Virus record (IMG/VR): IMGVR_UViG_3300048930_000172 | Span: 1-39,028 of that record | Direction: 5' to 3' (one strand) | Length of the DNA: 39,028 bases | DNA from: a virus | Part shown: in pieces, positions 9,189 through 14,412 of the stretch | Layout of the letters: each line of letters opens with the position of its first letter | How positions within the stretch are numbered: the stretch's first letter is position 1 | Notes under the pieces: model-generated | Told to the model about the DNA's origin: nothing | Databases searched by the model: none | What the model saw: the letters and a program-made list of their open reading frames with translations, nothing else | Program-made: the position numbers and the translations under genes

Positions 9189-9656
9189 TTATAGGTGCGC
9201 CCATAGTTTCTTTGTTTGGATGGCCGATACATGCTGCTGGCTGATTCCGAACCGCTTGGCCGTGATCCGCTGGGGTTCGGCTGACTGGCGAATGGCGAGC
9301 ACGTCATCCTTGGTGAGCTTGGCGAGCGGGTGCTTCTCGCCTCGGTTATCAGTTCCGTCTCGTCGGCGGTCCAACTGGTTCTCGCTCGGGCTCGCCCAGT
9401 AGAGGTGCCGGGCGTTCATGCAGAGCGTCTGCTTGCAGAGGTGCGCCGCTTCCTTGTCAGCGGGATCTTCGCCCGTCGCGAGCACCAGCGCGTGCCGGTG
9501 GGTGTACGTCAGCTCGCCGTCCAGCCGCACCTTGCCGTACTTCTTCTTGCCTCGGACGTTGATGTGGGCGTAGGGCCAGACGACGCACTCGTCCGTCTCG
9601 GTCGCTCGCAGCCGGTTGAACTCGCTGAGCGCTTGACCCCAAGGTAGTCTTGCCAT
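9189..9656 (-). CDS. HNH homing endonuclease 1
   Basis: The 155-residue free-standing endonuclease would cut unoccupied alleles to promote its own spread. It begins with a TDEC..WPYA motif (about 21-30) shared by all three HNH proteins here. The HNH core shows Asn81, His72 (AAHLCKQTLC) and His84 (NARHL), with Cys74 and Cys79 as possible zinc ligands. The C-terminal half (107-155) has AKLTKDDVLAIR followed by a helix-turn-helix (RITAKRFGISQQHVSAI) for DNA binding. It lies antisense between capsid and connector genes. Its ATG sits 2 nt from a hairpin whose loop holds the AGAGG ribosome site. It is clearly related to the proteins at 13179-13742 and 31771-32220. Confidence 0.92.
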   Translation of the reverse strand: MARLPWGQALSEFNRLRATETDECVVWPYAHINVRGKKKYGKVRLDGELTYTHRHALVLATGEDPADKEAAHLCKQTLCMNARHLYWASPSENQLDRRRDGTDNRGEKHPLAKLTKDDVLAIRQSAEPQRITAKRFGISQQHVSAIQTKKLWAHL

Positions 9657-9711
9657 ATCAGGAACCTCTGTTTCCTGGTCATGCCCCCGGCCGCTGACAC
9701 GGTGCGGGGGC
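9657..9711 (-). promoter_or_regulatory. Structured two-hairpin leader of HNH gene 1
   Basis: Reading towards the gene, an outer hairpin (GCCCCCG 9711-9705 with CGGGGGC 9689-9683, plus an inner CCG/CGG step) comes first. A 5-nt linker follows, then a second hairpin (CAGGAA 9677-9672 with TTCCTG 9664-9659). The loop of the second hairpin carries the ribosome site, 2 nt before the ATG-proximal end. The same arrangement with compensatory base changes precedes HNH gene 2 (13743-13796). It may control translation or be part of the mobile unit. Confidence 0.7.
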
Positions 9712-11164: not shown

Positions 11165-12679
11165 ATGCCGGATTTTCCCGTTCGTTGGAGTGATTGGTCC
11201 GGTGGTGACTACGGCGACCTCGACTCCGCGAAGGCCGAGTCGAACCAGTACCACGGCAACAACGTCACCGTCTACAACTCGGGGCTGATCGGACCTCGCG
11301 CCGGCCTCAAGCCGTTCACGACGAGTGGACTGCCTACACACACGCACGCCCCCGGTCCAATGGGGTTCAGTGTGTTCAACTCGAACCTGCTGATCGTGCT
11401 GAACCGGATCTACCAGATCCCGCTCTCCACGGGCGTCGCTGCCGCCCAGGACGTGTACCCGACGTCGGCTGCCAACCCGGTCGGCTTCGCCGTCGCCAAC
11501 AGCGTGCTGTACTCACTCAAGGACGGCATCGTCTACAAGCACTCAGGCACCGCGACCGTCGCCGCAACCATGCCGGTTGGCATCACGTTCTCCCGGCTCG
11601 TGCAATGGGAACAGTGGCTCATCGGCGTCGACGCCACCGTCCCGTACCGGATCTGGTTCACCGAACTCACCTCGGCCGGACCCAACTTCGACGTGTGGCC
11701 CGCCAACAACTTCTTGTACGTCGGCGGCAACCAGGCCATCGAAGCGCTCCTTCCGATCTACAACACGCTGTACGCAGGCAAGGCGTCGGGCTGGTGGGCA
11801 GTGTCCGGCGTGCTCGGCATCCAAGCCTCGGTGCGTGCCCTCACGATCGGCAACGGCCCGAAGGACGGACGCCTCGCCGCCGCGACGACCGACAACCGGA
11901 TCGTGTACTGGCCGAACCAGGACTCGCCCGCCATGTTCAACGGCGAATCGACCCGCGTCCTCGACCGTCAAGTGCTCAGACAGGCTCAGACCGAGTTCCC
12001 GTCCGACGGCATAGCAGTCACCCCCACACACCAGAAGGTGTACATGGCGGGCGACGCTGACGCCAACAACGACGCCACCGACCTGTACGAATACCACCAG
12101 GGCCGATGGTCCTATCTTTCGCTCAACACTGCGATCGGTGGCATCCTGCCCCTCGACGTCAAGGCCGGCGACCAGCTCCCGTCCGGTGTGATCTTCGTCG
12201 TCAACAGTCCAACGACCGTCGGTGATGCCGTCGTCATCTCGTCGTTCGATCACGGTCTGGATCGACCGGCGCACGCCTCCGACACCTGGGCGTCACCGAC
12301 CGATCCCGGTGAGACGGAACTCGTGGCGGGAGAACTCGAGCTGCGGTCGTGGTACGACGGCCAAGGCAGGCAGGTGCGGGTGCGTTCCGTCATCGTGCAG
12401 TTCCGCAAGTGGACGTCGGGTGTCGCTGACACGTTGAACCGGATCACGATGAACGTCACGGTCAACGGCCAGTACGAGGCCGGTTCGGCGACGGGCGACA
12501 CTGTCGAATGGTACGAGCCGTCCGAGCGGGCGACCGATGACGGCACGAACGATTCGTGGCGGGTGAATATCGGCGAGCAGGGCTGGGGCAACGGGCTGAC
12601 GATCACGTTCCCGAAATTGCAGGGTGTCGCGATCCGCGAGGTGATCGCACTGTGTGACGTGAGGAACACGAAGACGTGA
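11165..12679 (+). CDS. Putative tail hub / nozzle protein
   Basis: The 504-residue product begins with the pattern SKAESNQYHGNNVTVYNSGLIGPRAG-like (about residues 22-47), followed by many short beta blades (for example FSVFNSNLLIVLNRIYQIP, FAVANSVLYSLKDGIVYKH, RIVYWPNQDSPAMF). This repeated-blade composition resembles the beta-propeller nozzle or 'stabilisation' proteins of podoviral tails (P22 gp10 type). The C-terminal region has a separate beta domain (about 390-500). It follows a leaderless-type -10 box and overlaps the next gene (GTGA). The assignment is by composition, size and position, so tail tube or fibre attachment remains possible. Confidence 0.65.
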   Translation: MPDFPVRWSDWSGGDYGDLDSAKAESNQYHGNNVTVYNSGLIGPRAGLKPFTTSGLPTHTHAPGPMGFSVFNSNLLIVLNRIYQIPLSTGVAAAQDVYPTSAANPVGFAVANSVLYSLKDGIVYKHSGTATVAATMPVGITFSRLVQWEQWLIGVDATVPYRIWFTELTSAGPNFDVWPANNFLYVGGNQAIEALLPIYNTLYAGKASGWWAVSGVLGIQASVRALTIGNGPKDGRLAAATTDNRIVYWPNQDSPAMFNGESTRVLDRQVLRQAQTEFPSDGIAVTPTHQKVYMAGDADANNDATDLYEYHQGRWSYLSLNTAIGGILPLDVKAGDQLPSGVIFVVNSPTTVGDAVVISSFDHGLDRPAHASDTWASPTDPGETELVAGELELRSWYDGQGRQVRVRSVIVQFRKWTSGVADTLNRITMNVTVNGQYEAGSATGDTVEWYEPSERATDDGTNDSWRVNIGEQGWGNGLTITFPKLQGVAIREVIALCDVRNTKT

Positions 12680-13068
12680 GCAACGGTCCCGGTTTCCAGT
12701 ACGCGCTGCGCGCCGAGCAGTTGGCGTTCGCCCCGTCGGATCAGTACCGCGCCGTGTTGCAGGAACAGCGCGACCGCGAGCTGGAAGACCATTTGGCCGC
12801 GACGGCGACCAAGCTCAACGGCATCCAATACGACCGAACTGCTGTTACAACAGACGGTTCAGGGCAAGCGACGATCAACTTTCCTTCGGCGTTCACTGCG
12901 TTGCCGTCAATGTCGCAGCCCGCTGTGGCTGGTACGTCCGTGTATGTCGCCACGATCACCTCCCTGTCAAAAACCAGCTTCACGGTGTCGGTTCGCAGCA
13001 TCACTACGGGCACTTTGTTCGTCGGCAGTATCACGATCATGTGGCAGGCGTTCGGGGAGCTGGCGTGA
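12676..13068 (+). CDS. Minor tail protein with C-terminal beta domain
   Basis: The 130-residue product has a helical N-terminus (LRAEQLAFAPSDQYRAVLQEQRDREL, about 12-37) that could anchor it to the tail. The C-terminal domain (about 55-128) contains TTDGSGQATINFPSAF and ends in GSITIMWQAFGE, similar to the short beta domains that cap phage tail fibres (gp53/H-type lectin-like). The GTG start overlaps the previous stop. Receptor or structural role is inferred. Confidence 0.6.
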   Translation: MSNGPGFQYALRAEQLAFAPSDQYRAVLQEQRDRELEDHLAATATKLNGIQYDRTAVTTDGSGQATINFPSAFTALPSMSQPAVAGTSVYVATITSLSKTSFTVSVRSITTGTLFVGSITIMWQAFGELA

Positions 13069-13102: not shown

Positions 13103-13121
13103 GGCACGCAAGGAGTGACGA

Positions 13122-13184
13122 ATGGCAGCCAAGACTGACAACTCAATGACGAGCCTGCTGTCACGCTTCGGCGTGGGACTAGAT
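13122..13184 (+). pseudogene. Truncated 5' end of an internal virion protein gene
   Basis: The first ~20 codons (MAAKTDNSMTSLLSRFGV) match the start of the intact downstream gene at 13825 (MAENTNGMTSLLSRLGV). The homology stops where the antisense HNH gene begins. The frame stays open through the HNH gene to 13832, but that part is only HNH antisense. A good ribosome site (AAGGAG) is retained. This looks like the left remnant of a gene interrupted at its 5' end by the HNH unit. Confidence 0.75.
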
Positions 13185-13742
13185 GTGCTTCCACGTGCGT
13201 CGGTTTCGAGCTTGACTGATCGTTGCCTCGCCAACCCCGTACTTCTCCGCCAGGACCTTCCCTTGCTCACCAGACGCACGGATGACACGAACGTCACGCT
13301 CCGTCAGCCTGTGCGCCGGGCACTGCTCTCCCCAGTTCATCGTGCCGTCGCGCTTCTTGTCGGCGCAGTTCTCTGCTCTCGTAGCCCATCGCAGGTGACG
13401 AGGGTTCATGCACGACGGGTTGTGGCACGGCCCGTGTGCGGCCTCAAGGCCATCGCCGTCAATTCCGGTCGCACGTTGCAGCGCGAGGCGGTGCGTGTAG
13501 TGCTTGGTGCCTTCGTAGACCAGCGTGCCGTATCCCGCAGAAGTTCGGGCGTGCGGCCACTCAATGCACTCGTCGGTCTGAATCGCGAGCAGGCGATCGA
13601 AGTCGCCCGACCGCTGCCGACTCGGCGCGATCGGAGTGTCCAGTTCCCCTCGATACCTGCGCCTACGGTGCGAGCAGCACATCGACCGTCCTTGTGTCGG
13701 TCGACCGCAACCGTCGACGGGGCAGTGGCTAGGGTGGGTCAT
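13179..13742 (-). CDS. HNH homing endonuclease 2 with N-terminal zinc finger
   Basis: The 187-residue product has an extra N-terminal Cys/His cluster (Cys7, Cys12, Cys22, Cys23, His25) absent from the other two copies. It then shows the shared QTDEC..WPHA motif (56-65) and THRLALQRATG. The HNH core is AAH103 with Cys106 and Cys111, Asn113 and His116. The C-terminal part has HRLTERDVRVIRAS and a helix-turn-helix (GKVLAEKYGVGEATISQA). An AAGGAGG ribosome site lies in the loop of the conserved hairpin 2 nt before the ATG. It sits antisense exactly between a truncated and an intact copy of the same gene start. Confidence 0.92.
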   Translation of the reverse strand: MTHPSHCPVDGCGRPTQGRSMCCSHRRRRYRGELDTPIAPSRQRSGDFDRLLAIQTDECIEWPHARTSAGYGTLVYEGTKHYTHRLALQRATGIDGDGLEAAHGPCHNPSCMNPRHLRWATRAENCADKKRDGTMNWGEQCPAHRLTERDVRVIRASGEQGKVLAEKYGVGEATISQARNRRTWKHI

Positions 13743-13796
13743 ATCAGCCTCCTTGGTGGCTGGTCGTGCCCCCGGCTGTTTGCGCAGTGCGGGGGC
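13743..13796 (-). promoter_or_regulatory. Structured two-hairpin leader of HNH gene 2
   Basis: It has the same layout as 9657-9711. The outer hairpin is GCCCCCG (13796-13790) with CGGGGGC (13774-13768) and an inner CTG/CAG step. A 5-nt linker follows, then the inner hairpin CAGCC (13762-13758) with GGCTG (13749-13745), whose loop holds AAGGAGG. Compared with leader 1, both the inner step and the ribosome-site hairpin differ in sequence while keeping pairing. Confidence 0.7.
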
Positions 13797-13824
13797 GTTT
13801 CTTCAACCTTAGTGGGTGGATGTC

Positions 13825-14412
13825 ATGGCTGAGAACACCAACGGGATGACCTCGCTCCTGAGTCGGCTGGGCGTGGACTACCAGAACGCTCCCGCGCCCA
13901 CGCCGGCCACCCTCGCGTTCATGCGTGGGCTCGGGCTGTCGTTGGACACGATGGCTGCTGCGAAGGACAAGCAGGTCGGCCGCATCAAGGACCGCACCAC
14001 CTCGACGCTCGGGGACATCGACGTCGCCAACGAGCGCACGAAGACGAACATGCTCGGCGATCTCGTCCGGCGCGGCGTGCTGCGCTCCGGTGAAGCGAAC
14101 ACCCGGTACGGTCAGCAGGCTGAGAACGTCGCCCGTCGGAAGTCGGACGCTCTGCGTGCCCAGGCCGAAGGGATCGACCAGGCCGAGTTCGGGTTCAACA
14201 CGGGCGCTGACTCGCTGCGGACGCGGGCACTCGAAACGGTGCTCGGTGCCGAGACATCGCAGGCGCAAGAGAAGGCGGCACTCAAGGCGCAGGAGGAATC
14301 GTACAAGCGCCAGGATGCAGCCGCCGAACTCGCCTACACCCGCTCGAAGGAAGCCGAGGAACGGGCACTCAAGGCGCAAGAGGACTTTCTCAAGAGGGGG
14401 CTCGGGATATGA
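13825..14412 (+). CDS. Internal virion / ejection-type protein
   Basis: The 195-residue product is Ala-, Glu- and Arg-rich and almost entirely helical. Long coiled-coil stretches (about 50-95 and 130-190) and repeated AQEKAALKAQEES / ERALKAQEDF units are visible. Its place before the two largest virion genes matches the small internal core proteins that podoviruses eject with DNA. ATG 13825 is chosen by alignment with the truncated copy at 13122; an in-frame GTG lies at 13816. Its stop overlaps the next ATG (ATGA). Function inferred. Confidence 0.65.
   Translation: MAENTNGMTSLLSRLGVDYQNAPAPTPATLAFMRGLGLSLDTMAAAKDKQVGRIKDRTTSTLGDIDVANERTKTNMLGDLVRRGVLRSGEANTRYGQQAENVARRKSDALRAQAEGIDQAEFGFNTGADSLRTRALETVLGAETSQAQEKAALKAQEESYKRQDAAAELAYTRSKEAEERALKAQEDFLKRGLGI

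Follow-up and report, generated by a model that had tools for sequence, protein, structure and literature searches.

Endonuclease genes lodged in other genes are known from several systems, and the closest parallels to the locus described here come from fungal mitochondria and from phages. In fungal mitochondria, mobile ORFs bring foreign C-termini to the genes that they enter, the native end is stranded beyond the ORF, and the divergence is largely synonymous (PMC3630166). Examples are atp6 of Allomyces and atp6, atp9, cox2 and nad3 of Glomus. Similar to our locus, these hybrid genes carry an endonuclease between diverged copies of one gene end, of which one is stranded while the other keeps the gene working (PMC3630166). 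They differ in that the 3′ end is duplicated and that the endonuclease is of the LAGLIDADG or GIY-YIG type and reads with the gene (PMC3630166), whereas in the window (the entire virus record of 39,028 bases, analysed as one stretch) the 5′ start is duplicated and an HNH gene lies between the copies on the opposite strand.

Among phages, mycobacteriophage ShiLan has an HNH insertion in a methylase gene. The host frame is open through the insert, and the first 11 host-frame residues of the insert resemble, in diverged form, the 11 host residues on the far side of the insertion site; a related HNH-like gene is found inside a methylase gene in Pacc40 and just upstream of it in Tiff81 and Sashimi (PMC11855218). 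The HNH gene inside a phage gene, the 11-residue resemblance and the open host frame are all reminiscent of the present case. In ShiLan, however, the insert lies on the same strand and forms one continuous frame with its host gene, whereas the HNH gene in the window is antisense and the interrupted gene restarts with a complete second start (PMC11855218).

In an ancestor of phage T4, an endonuclease split gene 39, the end of which became gene 60, as described in PMC5009743. The T4 mobA gene (genes 39/60) and the Aeh1 mobE gene (in nrdA) resemble our HNH gene as free-standing HNH genes that split phage genes, and the ribosome-binding site of mobE is likewise covered by a hairpin (PMC2988022). 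Both halves of the genes split by mobA and mobE are used as separate polypeptides, whereas the window has a dead first piece followed by a complete gene; a shared two-hairpin leader, as found in the window, is not described in the part of that report available to us (PMC2988022). The same source states that the cut sites of free-standing endonucleases usually lie hundreds or thousands of bases from the gene that encodes the enzyme and that MobA and MobE nick DNA instead of making a double-strand cut (PMC2988022).

The feature by which hybrid genes are recognised, a diverged duplicate of a gene end across an endonuclease, is found here at the 5′ end, and an empty site, as expected for a free-standing homing endonuclease, is present in a related phage (locus L007), which lacks both HNH genes of the window at these places. 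The locus would be a start-side, opposite-strand variant of the known hybrid genes and insertions, with HNH gene 2 as a putative homing gene. No case of a phage HNH gene carrying a gene start was found in the literature searched, which lay mostly outside subscription journals.

Organization of the locus

The features of the locus are collected in Table 1. The interrupted gene is called gene X, its stranded first codons copy A, and the start of the working gene copy B.

Table 1. Coordinates of the features at gene X and at the first HNH gene in the window
Feature	Position	Strand	Remarks
HNH gene 1 (HNH_3 nuclease of 155 aa), in the gap that follows the major capsid gene	9189-9656	-	PF13392; gap empty in L007
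Leader of HNH gene 1, two hairpins	9654-9711	-	77% identity with that of HNH gene 2 (60 bases)
Ribosome-binding site of copy A, AAGGAG	13110-13115	+	Duplex energy -8.4 kcal/mol; AAGGAGT also before the L007 gene
Copy A, stranded fragment with the first 18-19 codons of gene X	13122-13178	+	Ranks first by motif score in the window (25.3 bits)
Read-through frame of 236 codons, open from copy A through the HNH antisense strand	13122-13832	+	Stop overlaps the gene X start
Junction, GACTA in common with copy B after a one-base shift	13177-13181		By eye; holds the HNH gene 2 stop
HNH gene 2, 187 aa, HNH_3 nuclease	13179-13742	-	PF13392, phrog_59
Leader of HNH gene 2, two hairpins	13740-13796	-	Start codon included
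Hairpin 2 of this leader, with the ribosome-binding site	ca. 13745-13762	-
Hairpin 1 of this leader	13768-13796	-
Working gene X (195 aa), beginning with copy B	13825-14412	+	69% identity to the uninterrupted gene in L001/L007

Both HNH proteins belong to the same Pfam family, with scores of 29.7 bits for the product of HNH gene 2 and 26.1 bits for that of HNH gene 1 (cutoff 24.8); the match of the former to phrog_59 has an E-value of 1.4e-19. His103 and Asn125 of the HNH gene 2 protein align with the active-site segment 85-119 of I-PpoI at an E-value of only 0.12-0.16, and we take the aligned His and Asn to be the catalytic residues of I-PpoI. Alignments of the HNH gene 2 protein to proteins of named phages commonly extend to its last residue, 187, and the HNH gene of Brevibacterium phage Rousseau has its stop at the next codon after that end. 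The junction therefore coincides with the natural end of the gene, and HNH gene 2 is of natural full length. A scan for an intrinsic terminator in the HNH cassette gave no support for one.

The codons of copy A that match the start of gene X number 18 (13122-13175, MAAKTDNSMTSLLSRFGV), and copy B begins with MAENTNGMTSLLSRLGV at 13825. The HNH gene 2 stop triplet (13179-13181) is codon 20 of copy A, with one codon between it and the last matching one. If a one-base shift is allowed, as judged by eye, the GACTA of copy A equals that of copy B and the match reaches into the HNH stop.

Upstream of copy A lies a 130-aa gene (12676-13068), of which only about the first 40 residues are conserved (compared with L007, 14155-17141). 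L007 matches its residues 1-41 and has other genes between this match and gene X, three other reading frames being present in the stretch from the 504-aa gene to gene X. The region between a 504-aa gene and gene X is variable and perhaps tail-fibre related, with a weak Gp53-like match. In two further loci (L011, 5403-6304; L021, 14261-15267), about 300 residues are inserted in frame into the homologue of the 504-aa gene, in both cases at one and the same position near residue 275.

Comparison of the two gene starts

To score gene X starts, a ten-column matrix was made from six motifs of relatives, with the sequences of the window left out. Among 65,879 stop-free stretches in six frames, copy A ranks first and copy B second (24.4 bits), and the third-ranking stretch reaches 11.0 bits; the best score in 20 Markov-simulated windows was 15.4 bits with the same matrix. 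A chance resemblance of copy A, at 25.3 bits, is rejected by these values.

Over the ten core codons the copies differ at 11 of 30 bases and at 1 of 10 residues. The sole residue change is from L to F, and F is also present in the relatives L007 and L014. If 11 bases were changed at random, residue changes would be this few with a probability of 1.5e-5, a figure that is somewhat biased since copy A was first recognised by its protein match. Both serine codons of the motif fall in different codon boxes (AGC/TCA vs TCG/AGT), and the pair escaped a search for DNA repeats seeded with 8 bases. The substitution pattern rejects a recent or target-site duplication, and it indicates that both copies were coding, as working genes, while they diverged. 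The earlier note on this DNA had described HNH gene 2 as lying between a truncated and an intact, diverged copy of one gene start, which the motif scores confirm. It had also excluded a recent duplication, in agreement with the codon comparison, and had placed the HNH stop where the match ends, which holds with the one-base shift, while without it one codon lies between the last matching codon and the stop.

The region upstream of copy A resembles that of the L007 gene, with AAGGAGT before the ATG in both, whereas copy B is directly preceded by the HNH leader. On these grounds the native position is probably that of copy A. Copy B has its own ribosome-binding site, of adequate strength, with a duplex energy of -7.8 kcal/mol, equal to that of the L007 gene. 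In a hybrid gene the stranded copy should be closest to the near relative and the working copy closer to a foreign lineage; here the differences from L007 number 9 of 30 bases for copy A and 11 of 30 for copy B, a stretch too short to tell which copy is foreign, and copy B is the presumed foreign one.

The frame that starts at copy A is open up to a TGA overlapping the gene X start, and a functional read-through protein or translational coupling to gene X was therefore considered. Such a frame stays open by chance with a probability of 0.09-0.59, and it is probably incidental. Both candidates were set aside in view of this value and of the site that copy B has for itself.

Gene X in related phages

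The nearest record, IMGVR_UViG_3300048582_000062 (G001; loci L001, L004, L005 and L007), has a capsid protein 85% identical to that of the window. Its gene X is uninterrupted, and no HNH gene is found there or at the place of HNH gene 1. It carries an HNH_3 gene elsewhere, after a terminase-like gene (the terminase judged by eye). The capsid proteins of named phages show at most 42% identity over a third of the length and at most 35% over more, and gene X and the 504-aa gene have no match among these phages. Among viral contigs, gene X, the 504-aa gene and the HNH protein each have one close relative.

A search with the capsid protein gave 16 loci, and alignment of gene X added one further gene X record (L048). 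Besides the window, gene X occurs in seven records (L007, L010, L012, L013, L014, L019 and L048). The earlier note had advised a search for an uninterrupted gene in related phages; no HNH gene interrupts gene X in any of the seven, within the stretch examined of each record (not always the whole record). Six of the seven have a single copy. L012 has two full-length tandem copies with no HNH gene between them, one with a VanY domain and the other with a different N-terminal extension. In a tree, the L012 copies are sisters (support 0.98), and gene X of the window groups with the single-copy L007 gene (0.996). The sister relation and the extra N-terminal domains mark the L012 duplication as lineage-specific.

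In the distant relatives, gene X corresponds to the C-terminal part of a larger protein (L012, 15918-18545; L010, 13649-15046; L013, 14476-15783; L014, 14502-15911), the N-terminal part of which is lysozyme-like, VanY or unassigned. An SLT_3 lysozyme-like domain lies N-terminal to it in L010 and L014.

The two-hairpin leader

HNH genes 1 and 2 are preceded by a common leader of about 57 bases, composed of a GC-rich hairpin, the sequence GACC and a second hairpin with the ribosome-binding site; its end lies 0-2 bases upstream of the start codon. In the window, the pattern CTGCGNNAACAGNCGGGGNCNNGACC was found a single time, where 0.02 occurrences are expected, and 18 stretches of IMG/VR contain it; a stricter pattern gave no matches. 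A similarity search for the leader reached Pan2 and five Propionibacterium phage records (Pan2 and Anatole were inspected). One leader stretch was found in a collection of 84,980 genomes (L054), before an ORF without a Pfam match. Besides the two in the window, such leaders are found in L026, L027 and L030-L047.

HNH genes follow 13 of the 18 IMG/VR leaders; 12 are confirmed by Pfam, and the remaining one, L030, is a fragment counted as HNH by its leader, identical to that of L040, and by the protein start that both have in common. These HNH genes are of the HNH_3 type with or without NUMOD4, or of the PF01844 type, and they belong to unrelated phages. Four leaders precede primase-type (Prim-Pol/DUF3987) genes, in L033 and L039 according to Pfam and in L044 and L047 as judged by eye, and one precedes a GDSL hydrolase gene (L036). 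The leader may be a general phage translation leader, or a remnant left by HNH genes.

Two observations concern individual leader genes. L035 (11648-11702) and L043 (4157-4211) have identical leaders before HNH proteins with different N-terminal parts and similar C-terminal HNH parts, which would fit module exchange. In Pan2 (L026, 1531-2289; ON968453.1), the HNH annotation as deposited (2080-2289) takes in no more than the last part of a longer HNH frame, which begins about 500 bases further upstream, behind the leader.

Covariation was assessed with 16 leaders, taken from 17 distinct sequences and the HNH gene 1 leader, with the near-duplicates L032 and L038 left out. The arms of hairpin 2 pair on average at 5.25 of 6 positions, compared with 3.64 when arms are swapped, and none of 20,000 permutations reached the observed pairing total; the fit is poor in Pan2 (4/6) and L054 (2/6). 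For the whole structure, 90.6% of the cells are paired and 13 cells are changed on both sides, values that 0 of 500 shuffles attained for either measure. The two measures that count pairs or types were not clearly above the shuffles (71/500 and 194/500). These values are to be read with the relatedness of some leaders in mind, and much of hairpin 1 is fixed by the search pattern itself.

Rfam gave no match in the window at the gathering score, and for four short leader loci only three weak matches at chance level, far below that score. With a covariance model, two leaders were recovered from the window and no more than one from any of 15 other records searched in full; G001, Rousseau and Pam5 gave none. 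Neither the leader sequence nor a description of the leader was found in the papers searched, again mostly outside subscription journals. T4-type endonucleases are known to use hairpins at the ribosome-binding site (PMC2988022). The principle is known; the shared motif is the new part.

Origin of the duplicated start

Of the explanations considered, the one we favour, with a probability of just under one half, is that the HNH cassette came together with the gene X start of a related phage, so that the native start was stranded and the foreign start now serves the gene. A free-standing cassette (HNH gene and two-hairpin leader, ca. 13179-13800, opposite to the late genes) would have entered the lineage in one recombination or repair event. 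On its left side, the end of the HNH gene would have been fused to the resident gene X, broken after about codon 19. On its right side, gene X DNA of the donor phage, including its start (copy B), would have been exchanged by homology along with the cassette. The native start and its ribosome-binding site would thereby have been left as an 18-codon fragment, while the foreign start begins the working gene. Entry in one event would explain why the native fragment is short, why it diverged as a working allele does, why the downstream gene is intact and why no other remnant of gene X is present. Copy B directly follows the cassette, as the other side of the cassette is set by the leader common to HNH gene 1. 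The donor phage was not found among the records searched, and copy A measures only 54 bases.

The role of cutting is the weakest step of the one-event reading. Any cut by the HNH enzyme, and its site, would be a supposition; a cut precisely at codon 19-20 is not to be expected of free-standing endonucleases, whose cut sites are usually distant from their own gene, and MobA and MobE nick. In a bolder form, which seems rather unlikely, HNH gene 2 would be a self-repairing homing cassette: it would cut gene X near codon 20, insert itself at that place and give the gene a new start with a foreign N-terminus, synonymously recoded so that it escapes cutting, the portable leader being a common translational switch for the exchange of nucleases. 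The protection of copy B by recoding would likewise be conjectural.

The earlier note had proposed a history in two steps, in which the HNH gene broke gene X near codon 20 and a later recombination with another relative restored a start downstream. Its first part stands in that copy A is an allele start in its native context, broken by an HNH cassette that the seven other records lack. The separate restoring recombination is dispensable, as a single event that brings the HNH gene and the downstream start explains the same facts in fewer steps, and a single event is what we would favour. A history in two steps explains why there are two diverged starts and why the junction is exact, but it requires an intermediate with a broken gene X, and none was found. 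Gene X is retained in all seven other records (found through gene X itself or beside the capsid gene), which suggests that the gene matters. A relative with the N-terminus of copy A joined directly to the gene body, which the earlier note expected to support its model, was not among the seven. We regard the two-step history as unlikely.

Ordinary mosaicism, in which an illegitimate joining at a gene boundary set an HNH gene and a related gene X next to what was left of the old start, with no role for HNH cutting, is to be judged unlikely to the same degree. The variable region between the 504-aa gene and gene X, with its three other frames in L007, agrees with such an origin; the position of the joint does not, as it falls precisely on the HNH stop and within gene X, the place expected for a homing gene.

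An ancestor with two adjacent copies of gene X, the first of which was entered by the HNH gene and then lost its remainder, finds a model in the two tandem proteins of L012. Such full-length paralogues in HNH-free relatives, which the earlier note had named as evidence against its own history, occur in this one record of seven and weigh weakly, since the L012 copies are each other's sisters and arose within that lineage. The window gene groups with a single-copy relative instead and six of the seven records have one copy, which makes this origin quite improbable. Finally, a target-site duplication at insertion, with copy A decaying afterwards, would place a fragment and an intact start directly beside the insert as observed, but is hardly credible given 11 base changes with a single residue change, at the above probability for unconstrained decay.

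Similar scars were sought at other cassettes. A first version of the split-start search was uninformative, as 85 of 86 mismatched control pairs also matched. In a second version with 15 shuffles per cassette (24 cassettes, 4 of them too short), the window case scored 51 against a shuffle maximum of 45. Of the 19 other cassettes tested, only L040 (57 vs 42) and L054 (49 vs 42) exceeded their shuffles; both matches are repetitive and of low complexity, and no convincing second split start was found among the tested cassettes.

Implications

The leader, which covaries strongly, is a candidate for a new cis-regulatory RNA in phage HNH genes and makes translational control of such genes testable outside T4. 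If the one-event reading of the locus is true, a phage HNH gene can invade a gene of the late structural region without destroying it, by way of a spare start. This would be the 5′ counterpart of the fungal mitochondrial endonucleases at gene ends, it would explain how HNH genes enter virion operons, and it would leave a scar that can be searched for, namely a stranded start with its ribosome-binding site.
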